DNA of 39,181 nucleotides from Chloroflexota bacterium (lineage in GTDB: Bacteria > Chloroflexota > Anaerolineae > Anaerolineales > Villigracilaceae). Below, piece after piece: positions 3,539-20,100 of the stretch. Every line of letters begins with the position of its first letter. Positions within the stretch are counted from its first letter, which is position 1. The notes under the pieces were generated by a model. The model saw only the letters and a list, made by a program, of their open reading frames with translations, had not been told where the DNA came from and searched no databases. The stretch lies in assembly GCA_016235425.1 (NCBI GenBank), contig JACRLC010000080.1, positions 1-39,181 of the forward strand, written 5' to 3'. Both the position numbers and the translations under genes were made by a program.

Positions 3539-5794
3539 CTACGAAGATTGATGCCATTTGACGTGAACCCGCATTCCCGCATTGGGGATGGATTGGAAAG
3601 CGATCTCAGCGCCGATTAAGTTGGCGCGCTCGACCATGCCGATCAGACCGTAGTGTTTGTTGGCGAGCATATCATCCAGCCTCAGCCCTTTTTCCGTGTC
3701 GAAGCCGGTGCCGTCGTCTTCGATGGTGAGGTCGATATTTTGCGAGTTGAGCTTTCCATGAATCAGGATCTTATTTGCCTGGGCATGCTTATAGGCATTC
3801 TCGCAGGCTTCCTGCGCAATGCGGTAAAGATTCTGTTCGATGTTGAGGCCGTATCTTTTGTCGTCTGATTCAACATCCACAACCACGCTGATTGCATCCC
3901 TGCTTCTTTCCATCAGATTATCGGCCAACTCTTCGAAGGCGGGTTTCAGGCCATAATGAAGCATAGGCGGGCGCAGGTCGCTGACGATCTCACGCAGGCG
4001 CTGCGCCAGTGTGTTATAGGCCTCCTGGAAACCCGGTGAAAGGGGTGTATTGTCCAATTCCATGAGCATGGCCGCCATCTGGTTGAGGACGCTGTCGTGC
4101 AGGTCACGGGCGATGCTCCGCCGTTCCTGCTCGTAACGGTCAATGTTCGCCTCGTATACGGCCTTCAGCCGCTCGGTTTGAAGGATATTGCTCAAGGCGA
4201 TGGCGGTCTGGTTGGCGAGCGATTGCAGGATGGGTATCTCTCCCTGGGAATATATATCGTCGGGATCGCGGCGGCCAAGCAGCCAGAGGCCGGTCAGTTC
4301 ATCGCCCAGGTGCAAGGGCAATATCAATCTGGCCCAGGGATAATTCCGGTTTTCACCTTGTTGATCTGCGGGGAGGTATTTTCCGGCGAGAGACTCGAGG
4401 CCGGGAATCGCTTCTTTTGGCGGGACCAGTTGATCGGTCACGCCTGAGGCGAGGAGCATTTTGGAAGTCCCCTTGTCCACTTGCAGGAACACAAACTGGC
4501 GGATGAGCAGGCTGGGGAAGACGTCGTCATTCAACAGCTGTAACAAGCTGTGAAGGGAGGTGCTGGTTGTGATGCGTGACGAGTAGGTTTCCTGCAAATT
4601 TCGCGACGGCAGGGAAATGCCAAGCCAGCGGCGTTCCACAAAATTTTGAAAGGCCGGGAAGCCCCAAATCGAGAGGACTGTTGTCGTCAGGGCCACAAGC
4701 GACCCCATGACAAGGGTATCGTCAGGTGCGGTAAACAAGCGATTTGAAAATGCCAGCAGAGGCAACCCGACTGCGCCAAGCAGGATCACGAAGAAATAAG
4801 CAGACATGAGCCGGTTGACGCGCACTTCCAATCCTCCCAACTGACGGCGATAAGCGGCATACAGATAGGCAGCAGGAAGAAGTGGAAAGCTCAGGAGCGC
4901 CAGACTGCCAATCCTGGTTGATGTGCCGGAATACGTTTGGATCACGGCCAGGATGATTATAGGGATCAGGATAAAGAATACCGCAAGCAGGAGCAGGCGA
5001 AGTTCCCGGCGCGTGTCGGGTTGACGGAATGCGTGAGCCACCAACAAAATGAAACTTCCGAAAATGGCAATCAGGAAACCCAGAAAGTAGAGATCCTGCG
5101 AGAAGAGTTGGAACCATTGGGCGATCATAAGACCCAGTGCAATTACGTATCCAAAAACCACCAGGAGCGGCGGCAGTTTCCCCAACGGGCGCGGGAACAC
5201 CCAATGCAGGTGCAGGTAAACGGGGACGCTCAGCCAGATTGCCATACGCAGGATGAGGGCGCTATTCCAGATGTGAAAGCCTGACGCGCCTCCCCCAACA
5301 GCCAGCCAGGCGGCTGTCAGAAAATTGAAGGCCGAGAGCAGGAACCAGCGGTCATCTTTGGGGCGGAGAAACAGGAGGGTGAGGGTGCCTGCCAGCCAGA
5401 AGACGTAAGCGAGGGGCCATTCGCTGAATAACTGGTCATTCAGTTCGCCCTGGTTGAAGCCGGGCAGCTGCCAGGGAATGGTCAGGCGCCCGCCGTTTCG
5501 ATCTACGGTAATGGGTACGGTCTCTCCGGGACGCACGTTCTCGAAGAACGTCCTGCGCAGATCGGCATGGAAAGTTTCCCAATCAAGCGGGCCGACTTGC
5601 ACCAAATGATCCCCCACCATAAGGGCAGGTTCTTGATTGACAAAGACGCGGTCAACGTCCCCGTTGGGATCCCACGCAAAGCCGTAAGGATGCTGGAAGA
5701 ACTTGGCATAGGTGTAGGCCAGCAGGAGCGCCAGGAAAAGCCAGGGGAGTGAATATTCCAGAGTCTTTTTGAATTGCTCTTTGCGATGGTTCAT
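3539..5794 (-). CDS. comP: ComP-like membrane sensor histidine kinase
   Basis: The product is about 751 residues (756 from a GTG at 5809); Bacillus ComP is about 769. It has a first transmembrane helix (about 15-32) and an extracytoplasmic PDZ-like segment (about 40-110, including PALMVGDHLVQVGPLDW). A block of about eight hydrophobic helices follows to about residue 385. Next come a GAF-like cytoplasmic region, a HisKA_3 dimerisation motif with the phosphoacceptor His near 566 (RRSIARDLHDSVLNQM) and a HATPase domain (N box EACENAYKHAQ, G1 EDDGTGFD, G2 HYGLIGM). One TM, a PDZ-like domain, more TMs and a HisKA_3 kinase is the ComP layout. It is divergent from the comX/comQ pair, which supports the role of pheromone receptor. 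No clear Shine-Dalgarno is seen, so the start is uncertain. Confidence 0.85.
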   Translation of the reverse strand: MNHRKEQFKKTLEYSLPWLFLALLLAYTYAKFFQHPYGFAWDPNGDVDRVFVNQEPALMVGDHLVQVGPLDWETFHADLRRTFFENVRPGETVPITVDRNGGRLTIPWQLPGFNQGELNDQLFSEWPLAYVFWLAGTLTLLFLRPKDDRWFLLSAFNFLTAAWLAVGGGASGFHIWNSALILRMAIWLSVPVYLHLHWVFPRPLGKLPPLLVVFGYVIALGLMIAQWFQLFSQDLYFLGFLIAIFGSFILLVAHAFRQPDTRRELRLLLLAVFFILIPIIILAVIQTYSGTSTRIGSLALLSFPLLPAAYLYAAYRRQLGGLEVRVNRLMSAYFFVILLGAVGLPLLAFSNRLFTAPDDTLVMGSLVALTTTVLSIWGFPAFQNFVERRWLGISLPSRNLQETYSSRITTSTSLHSLLQLLNDDVFPSLLIRQFVFLQVDKGTSKMLLASGVTDQLVPPKEAIPGLESLAGKYLPADQQGENRNYPWARLILPLHLGDELTGLWLLGRRDPDDIYSQGEIPILQSLANQTAIALSNILQTERLKAVYEANIDRYEQERRSIARDLHDSVLNQMAAMLMELDNTPLSPGFQEAYNTLAQRLREIVSDLRPPMLHYGLKPAFEELADNLMERSRDAISVVVDVESDDKRYGLNIEQNLYRIAQEACENAYKHAQANKILIHGKLNSQNIDLTIEDDGTGFDTEKGLRLDDMLANKHYGLIGMVERANLIGAEIAFQSIPNAGMRVHVKWHQSS

Positions 5795-5825
5795 GACGTT
5801 ATATCTCACAGGAGGAAAGGAGGTG

Positions 5826-5891
5826 ATGGTTATAGCAACAGGCTTATTGTGGAAGGTGCTTGTAAGATACTTCGTTCCGAAACACTTATGA
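5826..5891 (+). CDS. Possible 21-codon leader peptide upstream of comX
   Basis: An ATG at 5826 opens a 21-codon frame (MVIATGLLWKVLVRY and on) that ends 16 bases before the comX start. It is preceded by GAAAGGAGGTGAT (5815-5827), an unusually complete match to the 16S anti-Shine-Dalgarno that runs into the start codon. A second AGGAGG lies at 5810-5815. Either the frame is translated and coupled to comX, or the element is a ribosome landing site or the 5' part of a regulated leader. Coding is unproven because the frame is very short. Confidence 0.25.
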   Translation: MVIATGLLWKVLVRYFVPKHL

Positions 5892-5907
5892 AAAAGGAGA
5901 ACCTGAA

Positions 5908-6054
5908 ATGTTAAACATGAAAGCTTTCCGAAAGTTGCTTGCCGCTTCTTCCGAAGCGCAAGACCCTCGCACGAAGGCGCTGATCGCGCTCACAAAAGTC
6001 AGCCCGGCCCAGCTTGTTGCCATGACCGATGGTCTGGACTGGCAAGCCTGGTAA
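5908..6054 (+). CDS. comX: ComX-like pheromone prepeptide
   Basis: This 48-codon gene starts at ATG 5908 with AAGGAGA seven bases upstream. The peptide has a hydrophobic/basic N-terminal part (MKAFRKLLAAS), a DPRTKALIAL segment and the C-terminal end MTDGLDWQAW. Bacillus ComX prepeptides are about 55 residues. They are cleaved to a 5-10 residue C-terminal peptide whose tryptophan is prenylated, and known pheromones include MLDWKY and MMDWHY. The LDW triplet followed by two or three residues matches these closely, so Trp45 is the predicted modified residue; Trp48 is the last residue and an alternative. The identification rests on this end plus the ComQ-like gene 73 bases downstream and the ComP-like kinase next door. 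The frame has no other recognisable domain. Confidence 0.8.
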   Translation: MLNMKAFRKLLAASSEAQDPRTKALIALTKVSPAQLVAMTDGLDWQAW

Positions 6055-6084
6055 AGCCTGAAAAAGCAAAGCGAGTATAGCATG

Positions 6085-6114
6085 GAACTGTCCGGGAGCA
6101 TTCCCGGACAGTTC
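6085..6114 (+). promoter_or_regulatory. Perfect 13-bp hairpin between comX and comQ
   Basis: GAACTGTCCGGGA (6085-6097) and its exact complement (6102-6114) enclose a four-base loop. Only three T residues follow, and the comQ ribosome binding site GGAG begins at 6118. This could be a leaky terminator or an mRNA-stabilising or processing structure that lowers comQ expression relative to comX. A more precise role cannot be read from sequence. Confidence 0.75.
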
Positions 6115-6127
6115 TTTGGAGATCACC

Positions 6128-7051
6128 ATGAACATTTATCCATCCATTGTTGATTATCTTTTGAATATGCCTGTGCTGGGGGAATGGAATGATGCCAAAA
6201 CCATCCTCAATCGGATTGCATCCGTACAGCCGCGCGACTGGCGATTGCCGCTTACAGCGTGTGAGGCGGTGGGTGGATCGCTGGAACAGGGTATCCCTGC
6301 CTCGGCGTCACTGGCCTGCGCGCAGATCGGCATTATCCTTGTGGATGATATGCTGGACGATGATCCGCGCGGGGAGTATCGCCGCATCGGCGCGGGACAG
6401 GCGGCGAATCTTGCATCCGCGTTTCTATCTGCCGGGTCGCAAGCCATCCTTTACAGCCAGGCAGGGCCGATGATCAGACTCGACGCGCTGAGCAGTTTGA
6501 ATGAGATGATCCTGGCTGTTGCTCTTGGCCAGTGCCTGGATGTTCAAAATCCACAGGATGAAGATGCCTACTGGCGTGTGGTGGAGAATAAAAGCGCGCC
6601 CTTTTTCGGAACCGCCATTCACCTGGGGGCATTGTTTGGGGGCGCGTCGAAAATTGCCGGTGAGAAAATGGAGCAGGTGGGACGCGTCTACGGAGAGATG
6701 ATCCAGATCCATGATGATCTGCGCGATACGATGGAGACTCCCGCCAACCCGGATTGGACACAGGGACGCTCGCCCCTGCCCATCCTTTTTGCCCGGTTGG
6801 TGGATCATCCTGATCGAACGCGTTTTATGGAATTGTATGGAAATATTGCTGATGAGGGGACTTTGCAGGAAGCGCAGGAGATTTTGATCCGCTGTGGGGC
6901 GGTCAGTTATTGCGTGGATCAGTTGATGCGGCGGTCCCAGTCGGCGGAGAAGATTTTGCGAAGCATCCCCCTGGTCCGCGCTGACCTGATGGAATCCCTG
7001 CTCGAAGCGGTCATTGCGCCGGTGCGGAAACTTTTCGATGCGGTGAGGTAA
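6128..7051 (+). CDS. comQ: ComQ-like isoprenyl transferase
   Basis: The 307-residue protein (Bacillus ComQ is about 299) is of the trans-isoprenyl diphosphate synthase fold. The first aspartate-rich motif is DDMLD (residues 73-77, within ILVDDMLDDD) and the second is DDLRD (196-200, within MIQIHDDLRD). These bind Mg-diphosphate of an allylic substrate such as geranyl or farnesyl diphosphate. In ComQ the acceptor is the ComX tryptophan rather than isopentenyl diphosphate. The ATG at 6128 is preferred because GGAG lies six bases upstream; a TTG at 6116 in the same frame is less likely. A short-chain prenyl synthase for terpenoid synthesis would look similar, so the ComQ call depends on the adjacent comX-like frame, kinase and regulator. 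Confidence 0.85.
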   Translation: MNIYPSIVDYLLNMPVLGEWNDAKTILNRIASVQPRDWRLPLTACEAVGGSLEQGIPASASLACAQIGIILVDDMLDDDPRGEYRRIGAGQAANLASAFLSAGSQAILYSQAGPMIRLDALSSLNEMILAVALGQCLDVQNPQDEDAYWRVVENKSAPFFGTAIHLGALFGGASKIAGEKMEQVGRVYGEMIQIHDDLRDTMETPANPDWTQGRSPLPILFARLVDHPDRTRFMELYGNIADEGTLQEAQEILIRCGAVSYCVDQLMRRSQSAEKILRSIPLVRADLMESLLEAVIAPVRKLFDAVR

Positions 7052-7066
7052 TGCCGCCTGTCTTGC

Positions 7067-7768
7067 TTATCTTGGGTTGGTGTTGAAACGGATCGTCTGT
7101 GTATCCGGTGCGAGCAGTCCCAATTCGCGCGCTTTTGCAATCGCGGCGGCGCGGGTGTGTACGTCCAGTTTTATGTAGGCCCCCGAAAGCAGGTTGCGGA
7201 CGGTGGAATTGGAGACGGACATTTTCAGTGCCAGTTCCGCCGTTGTGGAGTTTGGGAACGCCGCGCACAGGGAAAGCGCTTCCAACTGCCGCCTTGCGAG
7301 TGATTTTGAGTTTGCGATGGGACGTCCCTTTTGGAGAAGCCGGTGGGCATTCTGGCTGAAATGGATGCCGCCGCCGGCGACGGATATCACCACGCTCCCC
7401 AGGCTGCGGATGATTTCCTGGTCGTCTTTGAGGATGTAGCCGCTGGCCCCGGCTTCCATTACGGCGCGGATCAGGCCGCGTTCGGCGTACATCGAGATGA
7501 CCAGAACGGCCAGGTTGGGATATTTCTGGAGCAGGCTGGGGATGACGTGCAGGATCGGATACGGGTTGGAGTTTTTTGGTTCGGAGGGAACGTTCACGTC
7601 GAGCAGTAAAACGTCCGTGGGATGCTCGGCTAGTGTGGGTTCGATCTGGTTTCCGTAGGAAATCGTGGCAACCACCTCGATTTCCGGGATGCTGTTTAAA
7701 CGATAGACATAACCATCCACAATGCTTTGATGGTCGTCCAATATGGTTACTCGAATGGTTTTAGTCAT
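7067..7768 (-). CDS. comA: ComA-like LuxR-type response regulator
   Basis: The product is a 233-residue NarL/FixJ-type regulator. The receiver domain has the acidic pair Asp11-Asp12 (VTILDDHQ), the phosphoacceptor Asp57 (VLLLDVNVP), Ser92 (VLVISM) and Lys114 (GYILKDD). A C-terminal LuxR-type HTH covers about residues 165-225 (TTAELALKMSVSNSTVRNLL). Size and order match Bacillus ComA (214 residues, Asp55). The ATG at 7768 is chosen because GGGAG lies eight bases upstream, although the frame extends to 7816. The gene converges on comQ with only 15 bases between stops. It is the obvious partner of the HisKA_3 kinase at 3539-5794, since that kinase class pairs with NarL-type regulators. Target promoters are unknown, and no TTGCGG-N4-CCGCAA box was seen near comX. 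Confidence 0.85.
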   Translation of the reverse strand: MTKTIRVTILDDHQSIVDGYVYRLNSIPEIEVVATISYGNQIEPTLAEHPTDVLLLDVNVPSEPKNSNPYPILHVIPSLLQKYPNLAVLVISMYAERGLIRAVMEAGASGYILKDDQEIIRSLGSVVISVAGGGIHFSQNAHRLLQKGRPIANSKSLARRQLEALSLCAAFPNSTTAELALKMSVSNSTVRNLLSGAYIKLDVHTRAAAIAKARELGLLAPDTQTIRFNTNPR

Positions 7769-9112: not shown

Positions 9113-9751
9113 CTACTTGTGTGATGAAGTCGCCTTCTCCCAGCGTTTTTCCAAATCGCGGAAGTATAGATCGGGATGATGGCGAAAGCGATACAACTTT
9201 TTCAGGCGCAATTGAACTTTCTGCAAGGTCTGACGCGCTTGTTTGAAATCTTTAGATTTCACCTGACGCAAACGAGCCAGTAGATCATCAAATGACTCGC
9301 TATAGTCAATGAAAGCGGCAAAGGGGCCATAACGTAAAATGAACTCCTGTACTGCTTTGCGTCCAGTGATCCGCCGTTGATGATGTTTCATATCTTTGAA
9401 AAATATTTCCAGGTCATTGTTCGAGGCAGGCACATTCGCAACTTGATAGCAGGTGAACAAGCCCCACCAGCGATGGCGAACAGCTTTGACGATGCAAGCA
9501 GCCACTTTGGCTTCGTTTGGGCGTTCTGTGGCAAGCTGTTCCAATCTTTTCAGGAACTGATTGACCTCTTGCTTGACTTGACGCGCCGTGCGTACGCGTC
9601 CTTGTTTGTCGCATGGTTCAAATAAGCGAGCCAACTCAATGATCCAGGCGCTTTGCCGTTTCAATTGAGTATAAGGCTCAATGTATTGGTTGCGGATGAG
9701 CGTGATGTCCAACAAGGCAGACAAGAGACGGTGTTCCTTTTTTTCTGACAA
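9113..9751 (-). CDS. Transposase, downstream frame (orfB)
   Basis: This frame supplies the C-terminal 200 or so residues of the transposase. It contains VPASNNDLEIFFKDMKHHQR followed by RITGRKAVQEF, which holds the probable catalytic Glu of a DDE enzyme, then a basic C-terminus. It overlaps orfA by 91 bases and lies in the -1 frame relative to it. The junction sequence CAGAAAAAAAGG fits a programmed -1 frameshift site (A AAA AAG type). Independent translation from the TTG at 9751 seems unlikely. The element may still be active because both frames are otherwise intact. Confidence 0.7.
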   Translation of the reverse strand: MSEKKEHRLLSALLDITLIRNQYIEPYTQLKRQSAWIIELARLFEPCDKQGRVRTARQVKQEVNQFLKRLEQLATERPNEAKVAACIVKAVRHRWWGLFTCYQVANVPASNNDLEIFFKDMKHHQRRITGRKAVQEFILRYGPFAAFIDYSESFDDLLARLRQVKSKDFKQARQTLQKVQLRLKKLYRFRHHPDLYFRDLEKRWEKATSSHK

Positions 9752-10719
9752 CGACGCAACGACATTTCGAGACGGTGCAATTCATCATAAAGTTTGAGTC
9801 CAGCCAGTTTGAACGGCGAAATTCCATCAGCCCGCAAGGCGTCTCGTAGGGCTTCGCAATAATCCATCAGCACCGCAGATTGGGGATCGTCTTGTGGCGC
9901 TTGGCTCAATGCGCGGCTGCTGGGGCGCAATTTTGCCCGTAAATCGCGGCGCAGATCGGTTTTCATTGCCCGATCCGCCTCAAAAATGGGCGCTCCGGCT
10001 TCGCACAGGCAATGCACTTGGCAAGCCTGATGCGGGCAGTCAGGTAAACTGGTCTCTACCGCGCGGCGGATGTTTTTGTCGGCATCACTGATCACAGCGC
10101 GGATGCGAAAGCCTAAGGCCTTGATCGGTTCCAACAAGTGGCGGCTGATCAAATCGGCGCGACTGCTGTACAACGTCTCGGCGACCAGCGTCAAATCCAA
10201 GTTGGCTTCACGCACGACAAAGAGCATTTCATTGCCTTGCTCGGGTTCCATGCCGTCCAAGCTGATGACTACCCCATGCCGTTTGAAATACGCGCGATGC
10301 GCTTCGATCTTGGCCGGTTGGGTCGCCCGCAGCAGAGCGAGAAAATCGCCGATCAGGTTGAGAATGTGTCGTCGCGAAACTGGCAAACATTTAGCATTCA
10401 ATAGGGCTGCGATTTCATCGAGCGTACGATGATCCCAGAAACGCCACCAGCCAATCTGCGCAATCACGTCGAAGCCAAAACTGGAACCTTTGGGACTCAA
10501 GTGCTCCGCTTCATCTGAGCGGTAGATCACTCGTGAACAACGCCGCCGATTACAACTATAACCCAGACTAAAAATGTGAATTCGTCCATCCAGAGTGATT
10601 AGATACTTGTCCCAGAGAGTCCAATGTCGGTGGAGCAGTGTGTTACAACGTGGACAAGTTGTAATCGTTGGACGGTAGTAACGTTTGAGAATATTTTTAT
10701 TGTCTTTAGCTTTTCGCAT
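9661..10719 (-). CDS. Transposase, upstream frame (orfA)
   Basis: This 352-codon frame starts at ATG 10719 with AGGGA six bases upstream. It opens with a zinc-ribbon-like pair (CPRC near residue 22 and CNRRRC near 56). Candidate DDE acidic residues follow in VISLDGMEPE and AVISDADKNIR, the first and second Asp. The last 25 codons after the run of seven A are out of register with the rest and look non-functional. The full transposase probably arises by a -1 shift at the A7 run (9738-9744 on the plus strand as T7) into the frame ending at 9113, giving about 535 residues. Confidence 0.75.
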   Translation of the reverse strand: MRKAKDNKNILKRYYRPTITTCPRCNTLLHRHWTLWDKYLITLDGRIHIFSLGYSCNRRRCSRVIYRSDEAEHLSPKGSSFGFDVIAQIGWWRFWDHRTLDEIAALLNAKCLPVSRRHILNLIGDFLALLRATQPAKIEAHRAYFKRHGVVISLDGMEPEQGNEMLFVVREANLDLTLVAETLYSSRADLISRHLLEPIKALGFRIRAVISDADKNIRRAVETSLPDCPHQACQVHCLCEAGAPIFEADRAMKTDLRRDLRAKLRPSSRALSQAPQDDPQSAVLMDYCEALRDALRADGISPFKLAGLKLYDELHRLEMSLRRCQKKRNTVSCLPCWTSRSSATNTLSLILN

Positions 10720-10796
10720 GGCATTTCCCTGAACGAGGATAAAAGCATTCTACCCCGTCAGGTAGCCGATGCGGGTTTGTAGGTTAGTTTTGCGCC

Positions 10797-11269
10797 TATT
10801 GATTATTCCGCATGGACAGGGTTTGAATCGTGCCCTTGACCGTGCCGAGGCTGTATTTCATCGGTGCGGCTTTTTCGCCAATTTGGGATTTTCCGCTGAT
10901 GATGAAATCCCGTTCGGGCGTCTCGAAACGAATGGCAGTGACTTTGCCGTTCAAAACGCCAGTGATATTTCGGCAGTTTTTGCGGACGGCCTCCGAAAAC
11001 GGGATGTCGCGCCCGCTGGACAATGCCTCGCCCACTTCTTCGTAGGCTTCGACGATCGTTTCCACGATTTTGACGTCATCATAAATGCCGTGGAAAGTGG
11101 CAGTCGCGCTCCCTGCAAATAATTCCTCCACCACCCATTCCACCGGCGAATTATTGCCCACTTCCTTGGACAGGTTGCCCAGGAGCGCGTTGAACTCGCC
11201 CAGCGCGCTTGCAAAACTGGCAAGCGTGATATCGCCTTCGAGTGCAAAGGTAAGCGTTTCTTTCGCCAT
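10797..11269 (-). pseudogene. N-terminal part of the hypothetical gene split by the insertion sequence
   Basis: From ATG 11269 (MAKETLTFALEGDI) the frame runs about 157 codons to the insertion sequence, where a stop (TAG) is created at the junction. The visible sequence (LASFASALGEFNALLGNLSK, then VEWVVEELFAGSATATFHGI) suggests a soluble alpha/beta protein of unknown family. No good Shine-Dalgarno is visible; an upstream ATG at 11287 would add six residues. It is divergent from the type III methyltransferase gene. The missing C-terminal part is at 8782-9080. Confidence 0.65.
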
Positions 11270-11364
11270 GAGATGATTATTAATCAAAACACTTTTGGCC
11301 CACCGGTGGTTTTCAGGCTATCCTGTTTTTTGGCGGAAAATGCCATTTATCCCCCCGTGTCTTG

Positions 11365-11370
11365 TATAAT
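11365..11370 (+). promoter_or_regulatory. Likely -10 element of the restriction-modification operon
   Basis: A perfect TATAAT lies 28 bases upstream of the chosen mod start (ATG 11399). No convincing -35 hexamer is present at the expected distance. A start about seven bases downstream would leave a short leader containing AGGGAG before the ATG. Confidence 0.45.
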
Positions 11371-11398
11371 TGCTGGACACCAGTCCCAGGGAGCCTGT

Positions 11399-13336
11399 AT
11401 GTCTTTCAATGTCAAGCTAATTGACCTGCTCAAAACGGATCACAACCTCGTGGACGACGAGGGCGAATTGCTGCTCGCGGCCGTGCAGGACCGCGCCTGG
11501 AAGATTGACCATGATCTTGTAAAACTTTTGCTCTCCGACGAGGAAATTAAGGCCAAGTTCTTCGATGAGATCGAGAAGCACTGGATTTTCAACGTCAACA
11601 CCTTCCTTGACTACATCTCGCAAAAGAACTTTCTGGATAACTCCTATACCCGCTTCAAAAACCGCATCGGCTTGACCATTGACGGCAAGTATTTGCGCGA
11701 GCGCGGCGACGTGTCTTTGGTGTGGCCCTACAAAGACACCATACTGGAAGGCGGACAAACGAAGGAAGAGGAGAAGCGCAAGGAAATCTTCTTCAATGAA
11801 GTGCTGGCGCAGGACGAGATCAGCCGCCTGCTCGACCCCAAGGTATTGACGAACTTCACGCGCTACACGGCCAGGGGCAAGGAGAAGGTGAAAGACTTCA
11901 AGCGCGATGAAAACGGCGTGATCCGTGAAAACCTGATTCTCAAAGGCAACAACCTGCTCGCCCTGCACACGCTCAAAACCCAGTTTCGCGGACAGGTAAA
12001 GTTGATTTACATTGACCCGCCGTATAACACGGGAGGCGATACCTTTGGATACAATGACAACTTCAATCATTCTTCTTGGTTAACTTTCATGAAGAATCGG
12101 CTTGAAATTGCGAGAGAAATCCTTTCATCAGACGGTTCAATATGGATTAATATTGGAGATGATGAAAGTCACTATCTAAAAGTAGTTTGTGATGATGTGT
12201 TTGGTAGGGAGAGTTATGTTACCAACGTCGTTTGGAGGTCTACCGACAACAGCAACAATGATGTTAAGCAATTTTCTGTTGACCATAATTCAATATTGGT
12301 TTATTCAAAGAATCCAGATTGGACTACTAACAGATTAGTTCCCACAGACGCACAGACTTCTCATTTCAAAAACCCTGATAACGACCCGCGAGGTCCCCAT
12401 TTCGACGGAAATCCTATTTCATCTCCACACTACCGTGCCAATTTAGTCTATGATGTCAAATCCCCCCAAGGGAAAATCATTAAACCCCCTAAAAACGGAT
12501 GGCGGTGGAGCAAAGCCAAAATGAAAGAGAAAATCGAAAGCGGGGAAATACGATTCTCAAAGGATGGTAGCAGGCTCTTTCGAAGAACCTACTTACGAGA
12601 ACTTAAAGGGCTTCCGCCTTCCAGTTTATGGGCTGATTTAGATGTTACAGGTCATAACAGGCAAGCAAAATATGAACAGAAAAATTTATTCCCCGAAGCC
12701 GAGAAAGAAGATTGGTTTCAGACACCCAAGCCAGAAAAATTAATCAAATACATTTTTGATATTGCAACAAAAGAAGGGGATTTAGTGCTTGATTTCTTTA
12801 TGGGATCTGGGACTACCGCCGCTGTTGCTCATAAAATGCAGCGTCAATATATCGCTGTAGAACAAATGGACTATATCGAAGTTATTACAATTCCTCGGCT
12901 CTTAAGGGTGGTTGGGAGTACGGCAACTAAGAAAGGCAAAATGTTTGAGGAGATTGATTTTGATCAAGGCGGTATTTCAGAATCAGTTGGATGGAAGAGT
13001 GGAGGCGATTTCATCTACTGTGAGATGATGAAATACAACGAAGCCTTCATGGAACGTATCCAAGCTGCGGAGAACAGCAAGGTACTGCTGAAAATCTGGC
13101 AGGAGATGGCGGAAGGCTCTTTCCTGAACTGGTACGTCAACCCTGAAGTGCCCGAAGAAGCCGCCAAGGATTTTGAAGCCTTGGGTAAAGAGGACGGCGG
13201 CTTTGAAAAGCAAAAACACCTGCTGGCGAGCCTGCTCGATAAGAACCAGTTGTATGTAAATTACTCGGAGATGGACGACGCGCTGTTCAAGGTCAGCAAG
13301 GAAGATAAGGAATTGAACAGGAAGTTTTATGGCTAA
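11399..13336 (+). CDS. mod: Type III restriction-modification system, DNA adenine methyltransferase (Mod)
   Basis: The 645-residue protein methylates adenine at the recognition site and supplies target specificity for the type III complex. Motif IV (IYIDPPYNTGGD, about residues 203-214) precedes motif I (LDFFMGSGTT, about 464-473), the beta-class order typical of Mod. The variable target-recognition region lies between and after these motifs. ATG 11399 is chosen over the 11273 frame start because AGGGAG lies five bases upstream and the upstream codons look non-coding. The section from about 12040 to 13010 is visibly AT-rich compared with the GC-rich ends, suggesting that the recognition core was acquired by recombination. 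The gene overlaps the DUF3800 gene by eight bases, and res follows. Confidence 0.92.
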   Translation: MSFNVKLIDLLKTDHNLVDDEGELLLAAVQDRAWKIDHDLVKLLLSDEEIKAKFFDEIEKHWIFNVNTFLDYISQKNFLDNSYTRFKNRIGLTIDGKYLRERGDVSLVWPYKDTILEGGQTKEEEKRKEIFFNEVLAQDEISRLLDPKVLTNFTRYTARGKEKVKDFKRDENGVIRENLILKGNNLLALHTLKTQFRGQVKLIYIDPPYNTGGDTFGYNDNFNHSSWLTFMKNRLEIAREILSSDGSIWINIGDDESHYLKVVCDDVFGRESYVTNVVWRSTDNSNNDVKQFSVDHNSILVYSKNPDWTTNRLVPTDAQTSHFKNPDNDPRGPHFDGNPISSPHYRANLVYDVKSPQGKIIKPPKNGWRWSKAKMKEKIESGEIRFSKDGSRLFRRTYLRELKGLPPSSLWADLDVTGHNRQAKYEQKNLFPEAEKEDWFQTPKPEKLIKYIFDIATKEGDLVLDFFMGSGTTAAVAHKMQRQYIAVEQMDYIEVITIPRLLRVVGSTATKKGKMFEEIDFDQGGISESVGWKSGGDFIYCEMMKYNEAFMERIQAAENSKVLLKIWQEMAEGSFLNWYVNPEVPEEAAKDFEALGKEDGGFEKQKHLLASLLDKNQLYVNYSEMDDALFKVSKEDKELNRKFYG

Positions 13337-14180
13337 GAACGCGCGAGCGCAAAGATCCAGCGGCCAAATACGCCATTATTTCGTGGACGAAGCAGGCGAC
13401 GGCAACCTGTTCAACAGGAAAGGACGCCTGCGATTCGGCGAGGAAGGCTGTTCACGTTATTTCATCCTGGGCATCCTGGATGTACCTGAGCCGGAACGAA
13501 TCACCCGGGAACTGGACGCCATTCGAGCGCAGCTTCTCGCCGACCCCTATTTCAAAAAGGTGCCATCCGTGCGGCCCGAAGCACGCAAAACCGCGTTGGT
13601 CTTTCACGCCAAAGACGACGTTCCCGAAGTGCGACGCGAGGTTTTCACGTACCTGGGCAGGCAGAAATTCCGCTTCTTCGCTGCCGTCCGAGACAAAGAG
13701 GCTGTTGCCGATTATGCCATTCAACGGCGTGAACGAGATGGAACGTACCGCTATCAGCCAAACGAACTGTACGACTACATGGTGCGTTCGCTCTTCAAAG
13801 GTCTTCTCCACAAAGACGACGGCTATATTGTCCACTTCTCCAAACGCGGCGCGCAAAATCGAACAGCCGCGTTGCAAACGGCGCTGGAAATCGCCCGCGA
13901 GCGATTTACCCGCCGATGGGGAATTCAAGCCAGTTCCGGTTTAAGCGTCGTTGCGCAAACGCCGCCGGAAAACAGCGGCCTGCAGGCTGTGGATTACTTT
14001 CTCTGGTCGTTGCAGCGGTTTTACGAACGCCGCGAGGATCGTTATCTCGAATTTCTATGGCCGCAATTCAGTCTGGTTCAGGACCTGGATGATAAACGTG
14101 AACACCCCTATGGCTGCTATTACACACAAAAAAGGCCGCTTGCATTAGCGGCCCTCGATAATAACTTGCCAGGGATATAG
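13329..14180 (+). CDS. DUF3800-family protein inside the type III operon
   Basis: The 283-residue protein begins with the DUF3800 signature (HYFVDEAGDGN, with Asp20-Glu21). It continues with RYFILGILDV, a FHAKDDVPEVRREVF segment and a C-terminal AVDYFLWSLQRFYERREDRY. DUF3800 proteins have an RNase H-like fold with conserved acidic residues and are often found near mobile or defence genes. Their biochemical role is not firmly established. Here the gene overlaps mod by eight bases and ends 15 bases before res, so it is translated as part of the operon. A role in restriction, such as an additional nuclease or a control factor, is inference from context. A GGCCGC/GCGGCC hairpin lies in its last codons (about 14137-14156). 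Confidence 0.8.
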   Translation: MAKNARAQRSSGQIRHYFVDEAGDGNLFNRKGRLRFGEEGCSRYFILGILDVPEPERITRELDAIRAQLLADPYFKKVPSVRPEARKTALVFHAKDDVPEVRREVFTYLGRQKFRFFAAVRDKEAVADYAIQRRERDGTYRYQPNELYDYMVRSLFKGLLHKDDGYIVHFSKRGAQNRTAALQTALEIARERFTRRWGIQASSGLSVVAQTPPENSGLQAVDYFLWSLQRFYERREDRYLEFLWPQFSLVQDLDDKREHPYGCYYTQKRPLALAALDNNLPGI

Positions 14181-14195
14181 GGCTACTTCACCGCA

Positions 14196-16985
14196 GTGGA
14201 GTCTCCTCACGGCATGAAGCCGAATTTTGTCCGCTGGCAAACTTATTATAACCCAACGATAGGATTTTTCAAGATGGAGTCTGGCGCGAAATTTCTTTAC
14301 GAAGACCTCGATACCCTCTCAAACTGGGGCAATCTGCCCAAAACCATCCCCGATTCAGTGCGCAAAAACCTGAACCCCAAATATGAACTGCGTCCGTATC
14401 AGGTCGAAGCCTTTGCACGCTTCTTCCATTGCCACAAGAACGGCTTCCCTAACAAATCCCTGCCCTTGCATTTCCTCTTCAACATGGCAACGGGCAGCGG
14501 CAAAACGCTCATCATGGCGGGGGCAATCCTGTATCTTTACGAGCAGGGCTATCGCAACTTCCTGTTCTTCGTCAACTCCACCAACATCATCGAAAAGACC
14601 AAGGATAACTTCCTCAACCCCGCTTCCATCAAGTACCTGTTCAACTCCGAACTCAACATCGGCAATCGCCGCGTGCGCGTGTCCTCAGTGGAGAATTTTG
14701 AAGCGGTCAACGCAAATGACATCAACATCTGCTTCACCACGATCCAAAAGCTCCACTCCGACCTGGCCAGCCAAAAGGAAAACTCCCTCACCTTTGAAGA
14801 TTTCCGCAAGCACAAGGTTGTATTGATTTCTGACGAATCGCATCACATGAACGTAAAAACGAAAAATGTCACACCTGCACTTGCGCCAGGTGCAAGTGTT
14901 GCGAGGAGCCGCGGAGCGGCGGCGAAGCAATCTCCCACTAACCATGAGATTGCTTCGCCTGCGGCTCGCAATGACATTCAATCTGAAATGTTCGATAGTT
15001 GGGAAAACACTGTTGAACGCATCTTTATGCAAAACGAAAATAACCTCCTGCTGGAATTCACTGCCACGCACGATTACGGAACGCCCGCGATGGTCGAAAA
15101 ATACCGCAGTAAAGTCATTTTCCGCTACGACCTGCCCGAATTCCGCAACGACAAATTCTCGAAGGATGTCACGCTGGTCTACTCGGACTTCGACCTGAAC
15201 GAGCGCATCCTGCAAGCCTTGATATTGAGCCAGTACAAGCAGGAAGTCGCGGCGAAACACCGTATCAATCTCAAGCCTGCGATTTTGCTCAAGGCTCAAA
15301 AGACCGTCGCCCAATCACAGGAAAATAAAGCCAACTTCCACAAATTGATTGAGGGCTTGAACGCAAAGGACATCGAAAACATCCGCCTCAAATCGGACAT
15401 TGAGTTGGTTCGCCGCGCCTTCAACTTTTTCCACGCCCAGGGTATTTCCTCAGCGCAACTGGCGGAACGCCTCAAACGCGAGTTCCACGAAGATTTTTGT
15501 CTGTCGGTCAACGACGAAAAGGAAAAAGAGAATTACCAAATCCTTGTCAACACACTGGAGGATAAGACCAACCGCATCCGCGCCATCTTTGCCGTGCAAA
15601 AGCTCAACGAAGGCTGGGACGTGCTGAACCTGTTCGACATTGTCCGCTGTTATGAGCCGCGTGATACAGGGCGGGCCAAGATCGGCGCGACCACCACCTC
15701 CGAAGCGCAATTGATCGGGCGCGGGGCGAGGTATTTTCCGTTCCGTGTTACAGACCTCCGAGGTCTTCAAGACCTCGGAGGTCTCTCAGCCGACCAACGC
15801 AAATTTGACGGCGACCTGGAACACGAACTGCGTGTGATCGAAGAACTCCACTATCACAGCATCAACGACTCGCGCTACATTGCCGAGATCCGCCAGGCGC
15901 TTGTTGCGCAAGGCATCATGGACGAGAACATCGTCGAGCGAAAACTCACCCTGAAAGACAAGTTCAAGAAAACCGATTTTTACAAGTACGGACTGGTCTA
16001 CGTTAACGGCAAGCTGGAGAATGATTACCAGCACGTAAAATCTTTTGCAGATCTGGGCGTAAAACGGAGAAATTACGTTCACACGATTGCCACGGGTCAT
16101 GGCGGTTCAAGTGTGCTTCTGGCAGAAGGACGCCAAAAAACGGTTGTTTCCGAGGAAACACGGCGCGATGTAAAACTGACGAAGATCGAGAAAAATGTGA
16201 TTCAATCCGCACTGGCAAGGAATCCGTTTTACACATTCGAGAACGTCAACCATTACTTCCCGCACGTCAAAACCATGAGTCAGTTCATCGAATCAGATGA
16301 ATATCTCGGCGGCCTGGAGATCACCTTTGAAGGCAATCTCTACCAGCTTGAAGAAAACAGGGCTGAAAAACTCCGCGCGGTCATGGGCCTGCTTGGCGAA
16401 GTGGAAGCCGAAGTCCTCCAGCAGATTACCGATTTTCGCGGTTCAAAGGAATTTACCAGGGAATGGGTACGCGGCATCTTCAAGGACAAAGTCCTGAAAT
16501 TCGACAAGAACAACGAACGCGGCAAAGAGGATGACCAGTTTGAGCATTTCGTATCCGCTAAAGATTGGCTCGCCTTCAACACCATATATGGCACAAGCGA
16601 GGAAAAAGCCTTCGTGCGTATGCTGGACAGACAAATGGAACGATTACAGAAGGATTACGAAGACATTTACCTTGTCCGCAACGAAGGACATTTTGCCATA
16701 TATGATTTTGAAAAAGGCCGCCCCTTCCAACCCGATTTTGTCCTGTTTTTGAAGAAGAAAAACGGCAAAATCCTCACTTATCAATTGTTCGTAGAACCAA
16801 AAGGAAAGTTCCTGAAAGATCAGGATAAATGGAAAGAAACGTTCCTGAAAGAAATCACCGCTGAATTCGGAAACAAAGTTTTGACATTTGAGGGTGAATC
16901 AAAGTATCGTCTGATTGGCGTGCCTTTCTATAACAACGAAGATGAGAATGTATTTAGAGAAAGCCTGGATGCGGTCCTTTCATAA
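14196..16985 (+). CDS. res: Type III restriction enzyme, helicase/nuclease subunit (Res)
   Basis: The 929-codon frame encodes the ATP-dependent translocase and endonuclease of the type III system. Motifs are Walker A (NMATGSGKTLIM, about 97), the DEAD-like box (VLISDESHHMN, about 211), a TAT-like motif (LEFTATHDYG), the helicase domain 2 ending in motif VI (QLIGRGARYFPF, about 504) and a C-terminal PD-(D/E)xK nuclease core (FQPDFVLFL, then LFVEPKGKF, about 844-871). Two segments are not expected in the family and coincide with palindromic DNA repeats: residues encoded at 14867-14976 and 15752-15784. Both keep the frame open. The start is uncertain: GTG 14196, ATG 14214 or ATG 14274 are all possible. 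The enzyme should act with Mod. Confidence 0.9.
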   Translation: MESPHGMKPNFVRWQTYYNPTIGFFKMESGAKFLYEDLDTLSNWGNLPKTIPDSVRKNLNPKYELRPYQVEAFARFFHCHKNGFPNKSLPLHFLFNMATGSGKTLIMAGAILYLYEQGYRNFLFFVNSTNIIEKTKDNFLNPASIKYLFNSELNIGNRRVRVSSVENFEAVNANDINICFTTIQKLHSDLASQKENSLTFEDFRKHKVVLISDESHHMNVKTKNVTPALAPGASVARSRGAAAKQSPTNHEIASPAARNDIQSEMFDSWENTVERIFMQNENNLLLEFTATHDYGTPAMVEKYRSKVIFRYDLPEFRNDKFSKDVTLVYSDFDLNERILQALILSQYKQEVAAKHRINLKPAILLKAQKTVAQSQENKANFHKLIEGLNAKDIENIRLKSDIELVRRAFNFFHAQGISSAQLAERLKREFHEDFCLSVNDEKEKENYQILVNTLEDKTNRIRAIFAVQKLNEGWDVLNLFDIVRCYEPRDTGRAKIGATTTSEAQLIGRGARYFPFRVTDLRGLQDLGGLSADQRKFDGDLEHELRVIEELHYHSINDSRYIAEIRQALVAQGIMDENIVERKLTLKDKFKKTDFYKYGLVYVNGKLENDYQHVKSFADLGVKRRNYVHTIATGHGGSSVLLAEGRQKTVVSEETRRDVKLTKIEKNVIQSALARNPFYTFENVNHYFPHVKTMSQFIESDEYLGGLEITFEGNLYQLEENRAEKLRAVMGLLGEVEAEVLQQITDFRGSKEFTREWVRGIFKDKVLKFDKNNERGKEDDQFEHFVSAKDWLAFNTIYGTSEEKAFVRMLDRQMERLQKDYEDIYLVRNEGHFAIYDFEKGRPFQPDFVLFLKKKNGKILTYQLFVEPKGKFLKDQDKWKETFLKEITAEFGNKVLTFEGESKYRLIGVPFYNNEDENVFRESLDAVLS
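14867..14976. repeat. Palindromic repeat (family A) inserted in frame in res
   Basis: The unit starts TGTCA and ends CAATGACA, with an inner stem GAAGCAATCTC/GAGATTGCTTC and another short palindrome, CACTTGCGCCAGGTGCAAGTG. The same family occurs at 37021-37140 and 38929-39033. Inside res it is translated as an alanine/arginine-rich loop (VARSRGAAAKQSPTNHEIAS and neighbours) directly after the DEAD-like box. Confidence 0.85.
15752..15784. repeat. 16-bp palindromic repeat in frame in res
   Basis: AGACCTCCGAGGTCTT (15752-15767) and its exact complement (15769-15784) are separated by one base. The translation (VTDLRGLQDLGGLS) interrupts the expected join between motif VI and RKFDGDLEHELRVIEEL, which is typical Res sequence. 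Confidence 0.8.
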
Positions 16986-17188: not shown

Positions 17189-20100
17189 ATGCTCAAGAAT
17201 TTTGTCAAACTTTTCGGGGGCGACCCCACTAAAAAAACCGTCGAGAAACTCGGCGAATTGGCGGTACAGATCAATGGACTCGAGCCGCAGTTCGAGGCGT
17301 TGACCGATGAGGCGTTGCGCGCGAAAACGGACGAGTTCAAGGCGCGGTTGGCGGAGTCTGTTGGGAATATAGAGGGGCTCGAGGAGAAGGAGCAATTCCA
17401 GGCGCGGCAGGCTGCGCTCGAAGAAATTCTCCCGGAGGCGTTCGCGGCGGTGCGCGAGGCGTCGAAGCGGACAATCGGCCTGCGTCATTATGACGTCCAA
17501 TTAATTGGCGGCGCGGTTCTGCACGGCGGGTCCATCGCTGAAATGAAGACAGGCGAAGGCAAGACGCTGGTCGCGACGCTCCCGCTTTATTTGAATGCGC
17601 TGACGGGGAGAGGCACGCATCTCATTACCGTGAACGATTATCTCGCCCGCCGCGATGCGCGCTGGATGGCGCCGATCTTTAATTTCCTGGGGCTTTCGGT
17701 GGGCGTGCTTCAAATGGCCGCGGTGACCGAGAACGGCAAGAAGGCATTTATCGTGGATTTCGAGCGCGAGTCGCCGCACGAAGACCAGCGTCACTTGCGA
17801 ATGGTTGACCGCGTTGAGGCTTACGCGGCGGATATCACCTACGGCACGAATTCCGAATTCGGTTTCGATTACCTGCGCGATAACATGGCGATAAGATTGG
17901 ATGCGCGCGTCCAACGCGGGCATCATTTCGCGATTGTGGACGAAGTGGACAACGTGTTGATTGATGAAGCGCGCACGCCGCTCATCATCTCCGGGCCTGC
18001 TTCGGGTGACCTGGAATGGTACGGCAAGATGGCGCAGGTGGTGAAGCAGTTGAAGCCCGAAGATTACGAAGTGAATGAAAAAGACCGCAACGTGAGTTTG
18101 ACGGAAATAGGCGTCTCTCACGTGGAAGCGATCCTGGGGACGCAGCTCCTCGATCCCGACCGCCCCGAAGATTTGACTCCCGAACAGGCGCGCCTGACGG
18201 GTTATCTCGAACAGGCTTTGCGCGCGCAGTTCCTTTTTGCCCGAAACAAGGAATATCTCGTGCAGGGGGGCAAGGTCGTTATCGTGGACGAGTTCACGGG
18301 GCGGCTCATGCCTGGCCGCCGCTGGTCGGATGGTCTGCACCAGGCTGTGGAGGCCAAGGAGGGCGTGAAGGTCGAGCCTGAAAACGTGACCTACGCGACG
18401 ATCACGTTGCAGAATTACTTCCGCATGTACCAGAAACTCGCAGGCATGACAGGCACTGCGCTCACCGAAGCGGAAGAGTTCAGCAAGATTTACAGCATCG
18501 AAGTCCGCCCGATCCCGACGAACCTTGAATACCAGTCCCTGCGCGCCGATGCAACATTGGTGGAACAAAAGGCCAAGGACGACGAGGGCTATCAGTACTC
18601 GTATTACACAGTAAAAGAACCTCCCTCCAGTTCCCCCCAAAAGCGGGGGGAGAGTTCGGCTTCCCCCTCTCCCACTGGGAGAGGGGTTAGGGGTGAGGGA
18701 AAAATCTTTTATCGAAGAAAAGATTATCCCGACGTAATATATCGAACCGTCGAGGCCAAACTGCGCGCCATCGCGGCGGAAATTGTCCGCTATCACGTGA
18801 TGGGGCGGCCAATGCTCGTCGGCACAACCTCGGTGGAATCATCGGACAGGTTATCGGGCCGGCTCAAAGCCGAGCCTGTGCGCCGGCTTATGCAGGTGGC
18901 GTTGGTGCGCCAAACGTGGATGCAGGCGAACAATCTCGAAGAGGACGGGCGTCTCATCCCCGAACTTGCGCCATTCAACGAGCCGCTCGATAAGATCACG
19001 CCCGATGCGCTTCGTAAGTTCATCCAGCCGTTTGGGTTGACGAACATCAATCCCGAAGACTCATCCAATTTGCCAGTCATTCTTGAATTGCTGAGATTGG
19101 ATGAGCAATATACGAACCGACTAAAGTCGGTACTACAAGGGGGCGTGCCTCATCAAGTGTTGAACGCGCGCAAGCACACGGAAGAATCGCAGATCATCGC
19201 CAGCGCGGGCGCGTTCGGTTCCGTCACCATCGCAACCAATATGGCAGGCCGCGGTGTGGACATCAAGCTCGGCGGCGAACTCGCGGAGGAAGTCATCGCG
19301 GCGGTTAATCGCGTGCTTCGGAAAGCGGGATATCAGGACCCGTTCGACATGACTCTCGAAGAGCGGCGCCAGGCTTTGCTCAAGGTTGATCCGTCGAATT
19401 ACGGCATTTACGATGCGGAGGTCAAACTCTTCCTGCAATATTTCGAAGACATGGAACGCGTGAAGGAACTTGGCGGCCTGCACGTCATCGGCTCCGAGCG
19501 GCACGAAGCGCGCCGCATTGACAACCAGCTTCGCGGCCGCGCCGCACGCCAGGGCGACCCCGGCTCTTCGCGTTTTTATCTTTCGCTCGAAGACGACCTC
19601 ATGCGTCTCTTCGGCGGCGCGCAGGTGAGCGGCATGATGGAACGTCTCAAGGTGGATGACTCTCTTCCGCTTGAAGTGCGCCTCGTCAGCAGCATCATCG
19701 AAGGCTCGCAGACCCGCGTCGAGGGCGCGAACTTCGACGTCCGCAAGCACCTGCTCGAATACGACGACGTGCTGAATAAACAGCGCGCCCAAATCTATTC
19801 GCAGCGTGACCGCATCTTCGTCAAAGAGGATTTGCACGAAGATGTGGTGGACATGGTGCGCGCCGAAGTGAACAAACGCGTGGATCTCGGACTCGCCGAC
19901 GAGGAAGGCCCGTGGAAATTGATCGCCTGGCTGGACCAGGTCCAACCGCCTTTCATGATAGAAGACCGCCTCTTTCCGACCTTCGGCCTGTCTCTGTTGC
20001 TCGAGCAGATCTCCCTCACCCCAACCCCCTCACCCCTTCACCCCTCTCCCAGCGGGAGAGGGGACGGGGGTGAGGGAGAGGGGCAAGGGGTGAGGGATTT

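Follow-up and report, generated by a model that had tools for sequence, protein, structure and literature searches.

A ComQXPA-like cassette with a W-x-x-W peptide in Anaerolineae: a probable tryptophan-prenyl signalling system in the Chloroflexota

A 39,181-base stretch of DNA from a Chloroflexota bacterium of the Villigracilaceae (Anaerolineae; GenBank assembly GCA_016235425.1, contig JACRLC010000080.1; hereafter, the window), belonging to a 5.0-Mb genome, carries at positions 3539–7768 a cassette of four genes: a ComP-like kinase (− strand), a 48-residue peptide (+), a ComQ-like enzyme (+) and a ComA-like regulator (−). An initial annotation, made from the sequence alone, had likened these four open reading frames (ORFs) to the competence quorum-sensing locus of Bacillus, and all of them lie where it placed them, on the strands that it gave. 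We conclude that the cassette is probably a cell-to-cell signalling system of the ComQXPA kind, working through a pheromone prenylated on tryptophan. At the level of sequence, the case is built on the four genes and their co-conservation, the predicted fold and the motifs of the enzyme, the likeness of the sensor to ComP and the purifying selection acting on the peptide.

Searches of genome contigs with the enzyme as query returned 25 relatives, 24 of them in records bearing Chloroflexota lineage titles and the other (L033) in a record titled Thermoanaerobaculum, an Acidobacteriota. Genome searches added three loci (L008 in genome G014, L057 in G117 and L058 in G102) and three poorer ones (L011 in G092, L012 in G051 and L059 in G334); the L011 copy is broken, being shortened and interrupted by one stop, and the L012 homologue is distant (29% identity). 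Enzyme homologues were found at 31 distinct places, the window included, and at 28 of these a related small ORF sits beside the enzyme gene; the places with no peptide are L011 and the distant homologues L012 and L059. A C-terminal W-x-x-W is present in 27 of the 28 peptides, L058 having W-x-W; L057 (E 0.003) and L058 (E 0.01), whose peptides match most weakly, were accepted on their position beside the enzyme and their tryptophan pair. As the 15 seed peptides of our profile were chosen by a tryptophan within the last eight residues, fair independent confirmation comes from the 11 distinct non-seed loci at which the profile recovers the enzyme-adjacent ORF; in the 29 records searched, the best match elsewhere reached E=0.4, and L011 and L012 gave no match.

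Since all of these loci were selected via the enzyme, co-occurrence across 100 genomes of the family provides a better test. Full-length enzyme occurs in nine of them, and peptide-profile matches at E≤2.4e-13 occur in exactly those nine, with five weaker matches (E 0.005–0.034) in enzyme-less genomes. Two of the nine (L027 in G073 and L029 in G030), placed in different genera, share a byte-identical cassette stretch of 10,148 bases, which could have moved between them very recently or could stem from a contig that they share or that was mis-binned; the pair was therefore counted once, so that eight of the nine genomes are independent. Across the phylum the enzyme is rare (7/400 genomes at E≤1e-30). 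The peptide frame, whose absence from relatives retaining the other genes had been named at the outset as a sign against the proposal, is kept in those relatives.

The gene order of the window recurs in 20 of the 28 loci (window, L013–L027, L030–L032 and L008). Among the remainder, L036 and L037 end within the enzyme, L037 showing no kinase in 5.9 kb upstream; L028 has no kinase within 6 kb; L034 and L035 have kinase and regulator together on one side; and L033, L057 and L058 have the kinase on the other strand. The L025 kinase is split over two overlapping frames, and L033 has two peptides, one either side of the enzyme gene. Mean pairwise difference is greatest for the peptide (0.71), followed by the kinase (0.58; sensor 0.61, kinase core 0.53), the enzyme (0.52) and the regulator (0.47). 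In Bacillus the order of conservation runs ComA, ComP, ComQ, ComX, according to the survey by Dogsa et al. (PMC4008528), so the two systems share their extremes, with the peptide most variable and the regulator least, and differ in that kinase and enzyme are swapped here.

Despite this variability, the peptides follow the consensus MQxFYxxL...LTxxS...W-x-x-W in an alignment of 22 (omitting L028, L033, L035, L037, L057 and L058), with 0–16 residues after the W-x-x-W in all 22 and 3–16 in 18. In 13 of 13 hand-chosen pairs, the proportion of nonsynonymous differences (pN) was lower than that of synonymous ones (pS), synonymous divergence (dS) being saturated in five; the peptide is thus evolving under purifying selection. 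No Pfam or NCBIfam family was assigned to the window peptide, and neither NHLP nor any other recurrent Pfam family was found among the 22. One or both tryptophans of the WQAW in the window peptide may be prenylated.

The window enzyme scores 67 bits against the Pfam Polyprenyl_synt model (cut-off 27), and its AlphaFold2 model has a trans-prenyl-synthase fold, with a predicted local distance difference test score (pLDDT) of 95.3 and a predicted template modelling score (pTM) of 0.92. In such enzymes the GKxxRP, RR and GK motifs bind isopentenyl diphosphate. We aligned these motifs in 26 cassette enzymes, seven Bacillales ComQ and 29 other synthase rows. GKxxRP is missing from every cassette enzyme and every ComQ and present in 28/29 synthases; the first Arg of the RR after the first Asp motif is found in 0/26, 0/7 and 28/29, respectively; and the Lys of the GK after the second Asp motif in 0/26, 1/7 and 28/29. 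Serine replaces threonine in the KT motif, giving KS, in 25/26 cassette enzymes, 6/7 ComQ and 1/29 synthases, while the second Arg of RR is retained in all 26 cassette enzymes and in one ComQ. The first Asp motif is retained in all aligned rows. We infer that the enzyme is a peptide tryptophan prenyltransferase.

In a 59-row tree, the cassette enzymes form one clade (support 100/100) and ComQ another (100/100), with no nesting of the former within the latter. Nor do the cassette enzymes group with short-chain prenyl diphosphate synthases, the placement that the initial annotation had singled out as telling against it. The enzyme tree omits L029 (identical to L027), L036 (cut) and two short synthase rows (L062, L063), and the 59-row version also omits L092, L055 and L056. 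The suggestion that the locus had been transferred is not supported, as the clade contains no Bacillales enzyme and the cassette is spread across many Anaerolineae genomes; recent transfer from Bacillus was set aside for the first of these reasons. Nor is there support for tying the cassette to competence.

Some of the reference sequences deserve mention in their own right. Bacillales comQ-comX clusters were found on plasmids, and the Anoxybacillus cluster was matched directly by the window enzyme (E 3e-4). A plasmid titled Stenotrophomonas rhizophila (L051) carries ComQ and ComX near-identical to those of Lysinibacillus, and the record may be mislabelled. Two Priestia plasmids (L055, 2966–6805; L056, 2858–6697) encode a 57-residue ‘hypothetical’ peptide ending in EWV, followed by a polyprenyl synthetase, a kinase and a regulator, in the order X-Q-P-A, beside gallidermin-type lantibiotic genes. 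A synthase-like protein from an Acaryochloris plasmid (L092, 1360–2307) is the only outgroup row without the GKxxRP and RR motifs and is possibly a further prenyltransferase.

The kinase comprises a first transmembrane (TM) segment, a PDZ-like region, further TM segments, a GAF-like region and a HisKA_3 plus HATPase_c core of the DesK/NarX type. In the window kinase, HisKA_3 and HATPase_c exceed their Pfam cut-offs and GAF_3 falls below its own; the AlphaFold2 model has pLDDT 78 and pTM 0.55, and ATG at 5794 is, on our reading, a likelier start than the listed GTG. Residues 36–120, as a profile of 13 of the 20 printed alignment rows, match PDZ-bearing PDB chains (best E 7e-5), and Pfam PDZ_2 is found at E≤1 in 5 of 20 relatives, the window kinase not being one of them; among the 50 matches listed by Foldseek for the kinase model, there were only kinase domains and no PDZ. 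Sensor-only profiles of the cassette kinases match those of Bacillales ComP (probability 97, E 1e-10, in a comparison run without a negative control), as does the TM part alone (probability 91.6, E 8e-7). The kinase alignment omits L008, L025, L028, L033, L036, L057 and L058. L033 and L058 keep peptide and enzyme and have the ComP-like sensor followed by an output of HisKA, HATPase_c and receiver in place of HisKA_3, which marks the sensor as the conserved partner of peptide and enzyme. The window regulator exceeds the Pfam cut-off for Response_reg (40.7 bits), with GerE slightly under its own (21.2 against 23.5 bits).

A ComP-like sensor was found in 17 of the 100 family genomes, nine with the cassette and eight lacking peptide and enzyme. 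In six of these eight, comA and comP are both intact and lie on the same strand, 95–397 bases apart (L134–L139, from G004, G046, G081, G007, G099 and G033); the other two are a 3-kb contig starting within comP (G056) and a shortened comP beside comA (G075). Removing comX-comQ from a full cassette yields exactly this orphan order. In a quickly built tree of 29 kinases, from which the truncated G075 sensor was excluded, orphan pairs are scattered among full cassettes, and the seven orphans imply six state changes, five forced by well-supported branches; the regulator tree likewise gives six, four of them forced. The closest kinase to that of the window is the G004 orphan (sensor 63% identical). 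Although the tree itself is blind to direction, we prefer loss of comX-comQ to gain, as loss needs no repeated insertion at one site. An ORF that we take to be DnaE is a neighbour of several full cassettes and, by eye, of two orphan pairs (L134 and L139), in keeping with a fixed site.

The DNA separating comP from comX contains a conserved element that, on the strand of comX, reads AAAGGAGGTG-N-ATTATAGC. It could be anchored in 17 of the 21 loci tried, and 14 of 31 cassette records contain its strict pattern. In nine whole genomes, the strict pattern was found once in seven and not at all in two, each match falling between comP and comX; a reversed-pattern control gave 0–2 matches per genome and four in total. 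On the opposite strand the element reads CGCTATAAT, followed by an anti-Shine-Dalgarno-like stretch, and CGCTATAAT or a near-identical sequence precedes comP in three of the six orphan pairs (L136, L138 and L139); because it is retained there, we take it to be the −10 box of comP. The AAGGAGGTG half of the element is conserved as well. A regulon box was rejected, since the strict pattern is not repeated in the genomes searched and reveals no targets, as was a leader ORF with an ATT start, the frame being, by eye, short or unrelated in many loci. A strong hairpin predicted between comX and comQ is more stable than single-base shuffles in 19 of 23 loci (z≤−3.8; exceptions L015, L028, L031 and L035), and none of 200 dinucleotide shuffles was as stable in any of six refolded loci (window z −4.38). 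It is possibly a partial terminator or a stabiliser of mRNA; such hairpins could raise peptide mRNA above enzyme mRNA.

In the mechanism that we propose, the comX-like gene would yield a prepeptide of about 45–70 residues. The enzyme, now lacking its isopentenyl-diphosphate site, would hold an allylic diphosphate with its first Asp motif and prenylate a tryptophan in the C-terminal W-x-x-W of the prepeptide, whose C-terminal part would then be trimmed and leave the cell. The PDZ and multi-TM part of the kinase would recognise this peptide, and the kinase would phosphorylate the ComA-like regulator, which would act on its target genes.

Several points weigh against this reading, or at least against close kinship with ComQXPA. 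Pfam ComX (PF05952) matched none of the 22 peptides at E≤5, while giving 72 bits for Anoxybacillus ComX, and profile–profile comparison with six Bacillales ComX peptides gave probability 0.5, with no detectable homology. A six-frame Pfam ComX search of 21 genomes returned sub-threshold matches only, none in the window genome, and is a weak test, as the control genomes, that of B. subtilis among them, likewise fell below the cut-off. Homology to ComX was therefore rejected as undetectable by Pfam ComX and profile comparison, and the earlier label of ComX-like prepeptide holds for size, position and C-terminal tryptophan, not for homology. Both DDxxD motifs reported for the enzyme are there, but the second, counted as a match to ComQ, is a difference from it: its first Asp is present in 26/26 cassette enzymes and in 0/7 Bacillales ComQ (see also PMC10853753). 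Long branches, about whose meeting the tree program warns, and support of 93/42 for the isoprenyl diphosphate synthase (IPPS) branch leave the enzyme tree silent on a shared peptide-modifying ancestor with ComQ. To these may be added the uncontrolled sensor comparison, a cassette with neither exporter nor protease within it, and the eight sensors lacking comX and comQ, which may persist alone or see something else. The Bacillales system, moreover, is arranged Q-X-P-A on one strand, whereas here the arrangement is P(−) X(+) Q(+) A(−), with X before Q.

What the cassette has in common with ComQXPA of Bacillales is a small peptide, of about the 50–70 residues expected of a ComX prepeptide and with C-terminal tryptophan, an enzyme of prenyl-synthase fold without an isopentenyl-diphosphate site, a PDZ/multi-TM HisKA_3 kinase and a regulator of probable NarL type, all in one cluster. 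Because it differs in its peptide family (non-homologous by profile and with W-x-x-W), in keeping its second Asp motif intact, in gene order and in enzyme clade, we do not class it as ComQXPA proper; the descriptions ‘ComQXPA-like’, ‘outlying’ and ‘new architecture’, given from the start, are supported by the separate enzyme clade and the conserved peptide frame. PalX-PalQ-PalP of Paenibacillus likewise combines a peptide, a trans-prenyl-synthase-like tryptophan prenyltransferase and a kinase in one cluster, and PalQ, compared by description only, is reported to conserve the Asp in its second motif (PMC10853753); PalX, however, carries an NHLP leader and its tryptophan is strictly the last residue, unlike the 18 peptides here that run on past the motif. 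Ord1 and ChrPC-type prenyltransferases resembling trans-isoprenyl diphosphate synthases (ChrPC by description only) share the fold and a Gln shortly before the second Asp motif, a residue said to aid indole binding (PMC13290415); this Gln (Gln193 here) occurs in every row of all three aligned groups, including 29/29 other synthases, and so proves nothing for indole recognition. Unusual com-like loci described in 2014, with hypothetical comX sharing only a tryptophan and some on the opposite strand, come from Bacillus, Lysinibacillus and Paenibacillus, unlike the Anaerolineae here, and that census places comQXPA-like loci only in Firmicutes (Dogsa et al., 2014; PMC4008528). A ComP-ComA pair is listed for Chloroflexi from KEGG, with no ComQ or ComX, in the available part of PMC8895600. 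Our literature search, whose coverage was without preprints and most subscription papers, found no report of comX or comQ in Chloroflexota.

The modified peptide might instead be an antimicrobial or surface-active lipopeptide, a ribosomally synthesised and post-translationally modified peptide (RiPP), with the kinase and regulator sensing the peptide or the damage that it does and signalling being secondary. In PMC10853753 the Paenibacillus Pal genes carry the annotation of a RiPP cluster that includes a kinase, and the L028 and L035 cassettes adjoin a type I polyketide synthase; however, clustering of neighbouring genes at 21 loci revealed no recurrent immunity or transport gene beside the cassette, and the six genomes with an intact comA-comP and no peptide fit receivers better than self-immunity, so we consider this explanation unlikely. 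Alternatively, the enzyme might make prenyl diphosphates for a terpenoid, with the small ORF encoding a leader peptide or lying beside it by chance, which would agree with the Polyprenyl_synt match, with both Asp motifs being intact and with the Foldseek search of the enzyme model, in which the top PDB matches are ordinary synthases and the indole prenyltransferase Ord1 stands only at rank 45. Set against it are the loss of the isopentenyl-diphosphate-site motifs from all 26 cassette enzymes, the two ordinary synthases encoded elsewhere in the window genome, and a peptide whose own sequence is kept by purifying selection and whose occurrence coincides exactly with that of the enzyme, which together make a terpenoid role very improbable. 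Still harder to credit is a cell-internal or membrane-lodged peptide that co-regulates its own kinase and carries no intercellular signal, an arrangement in keeping with the lack of an export gene and with the strong divergent regulatory DNA between comP and comX; but Bacillus ComX likewise has no known exporter (PMC4008528), and the PDZ-like region follows the first TM segment and, on our reading of the model, is presumably outside the cell. Signalling by an exported, prenylated peptide is the reading that we retain.

Table 1. Features of the cassette, with positions counted from the first base of the window.
Feature	Position	Strand	Remarks and evidence
ComP-like sensor histidine kinase	3539..5809	−	Listed start GTG 5809; domain searches and AlphaFold2
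PDZ-like extracytoplasmic region of kinase, residues 36–120	5450..5704	−	Sequence profile against PDB chains
Conserved cis element AAAGGAGGTG-N-TTATAGC	5816..5836	+	TATAAT-like −10 box for comP on − strand, then anti-Shine-Dalgarno-like stretch
comX-like prepeptide, 48 residues, C-terminal WQAW	5908..6054	+	AAGGAG upstream; profile of related peptides
Intercistronic comX/comQ hairpin, 14 bp	6084..6115	+	Folding against shuffled sequences
comQ-like enzyme, trans-prenyl-synthase fold	6128..7051	+	Pfam, AlphaFold2, motifs, tree
First Asp-rich motif DDMLD, enzyme residues 73–77	6344..6358	+	Alignment
Second Asp-rich motif DDLRD, enzyme residues 196–200, Gln193 upstream	6713..6727	+	Alignment
ComA-like NarL-type response regulator	7067..7768	−	Pfam

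The neighbour clustering revealed no general target gene beside the cassette at the 21 loci. In the closely related L028 and L035, the polyketide synthase (KS-AT-DH-ER-KR) lies downstream of comQ. In Bacillus, ComA controls surfactin, of which this arrangement is reminiscent. L034 was rejected as a third such locus, the cluster member having turned out to be an alcohol dehydrogenase. Carriage by phage was also rejected, a scan of viral contigs with the enzyme alignment giving 78 pattern matches and no relatives. Within the window, positions 9113–16985 hold transposase-like ORFs, a ResIII helicase and a large ORF that, by look alone, resembles a site-specific methyltransferase, suggesting a mobile or type III restriction region adjoining the cassette. 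Positions 17189–21385 encode a SecA-like protein of 1398 residues, above the usual size, in which the P-loop and wing/scaffold models each match two segments.

It is conceivable, though we would lean slightly the other way, that these cassettes form an anciently separated or independently arisen family of tryptophan-prenyl pheromones, centred on Anaerolineae with an Acidobacteriota-labelled member, in which the double-tryptophan W-x-x-W is the core that is prenylated, with a sensor that has moved between kinase outputs and with repeated loss of comX-comQ at fixed sites leaving an eavesdropping comA-comP. If signalling through the cassette is borne out, prenylated-peptide signalling would extend beyond Firmicutes to Chloroflexota, new tryptophan-prenylating enzymes with an intact second Asp motif would become available for work on mechanism and as tools, and signallers and their receiver-only relatives would offer a natural comparison for the loss of signal genes with retention of the receptor.

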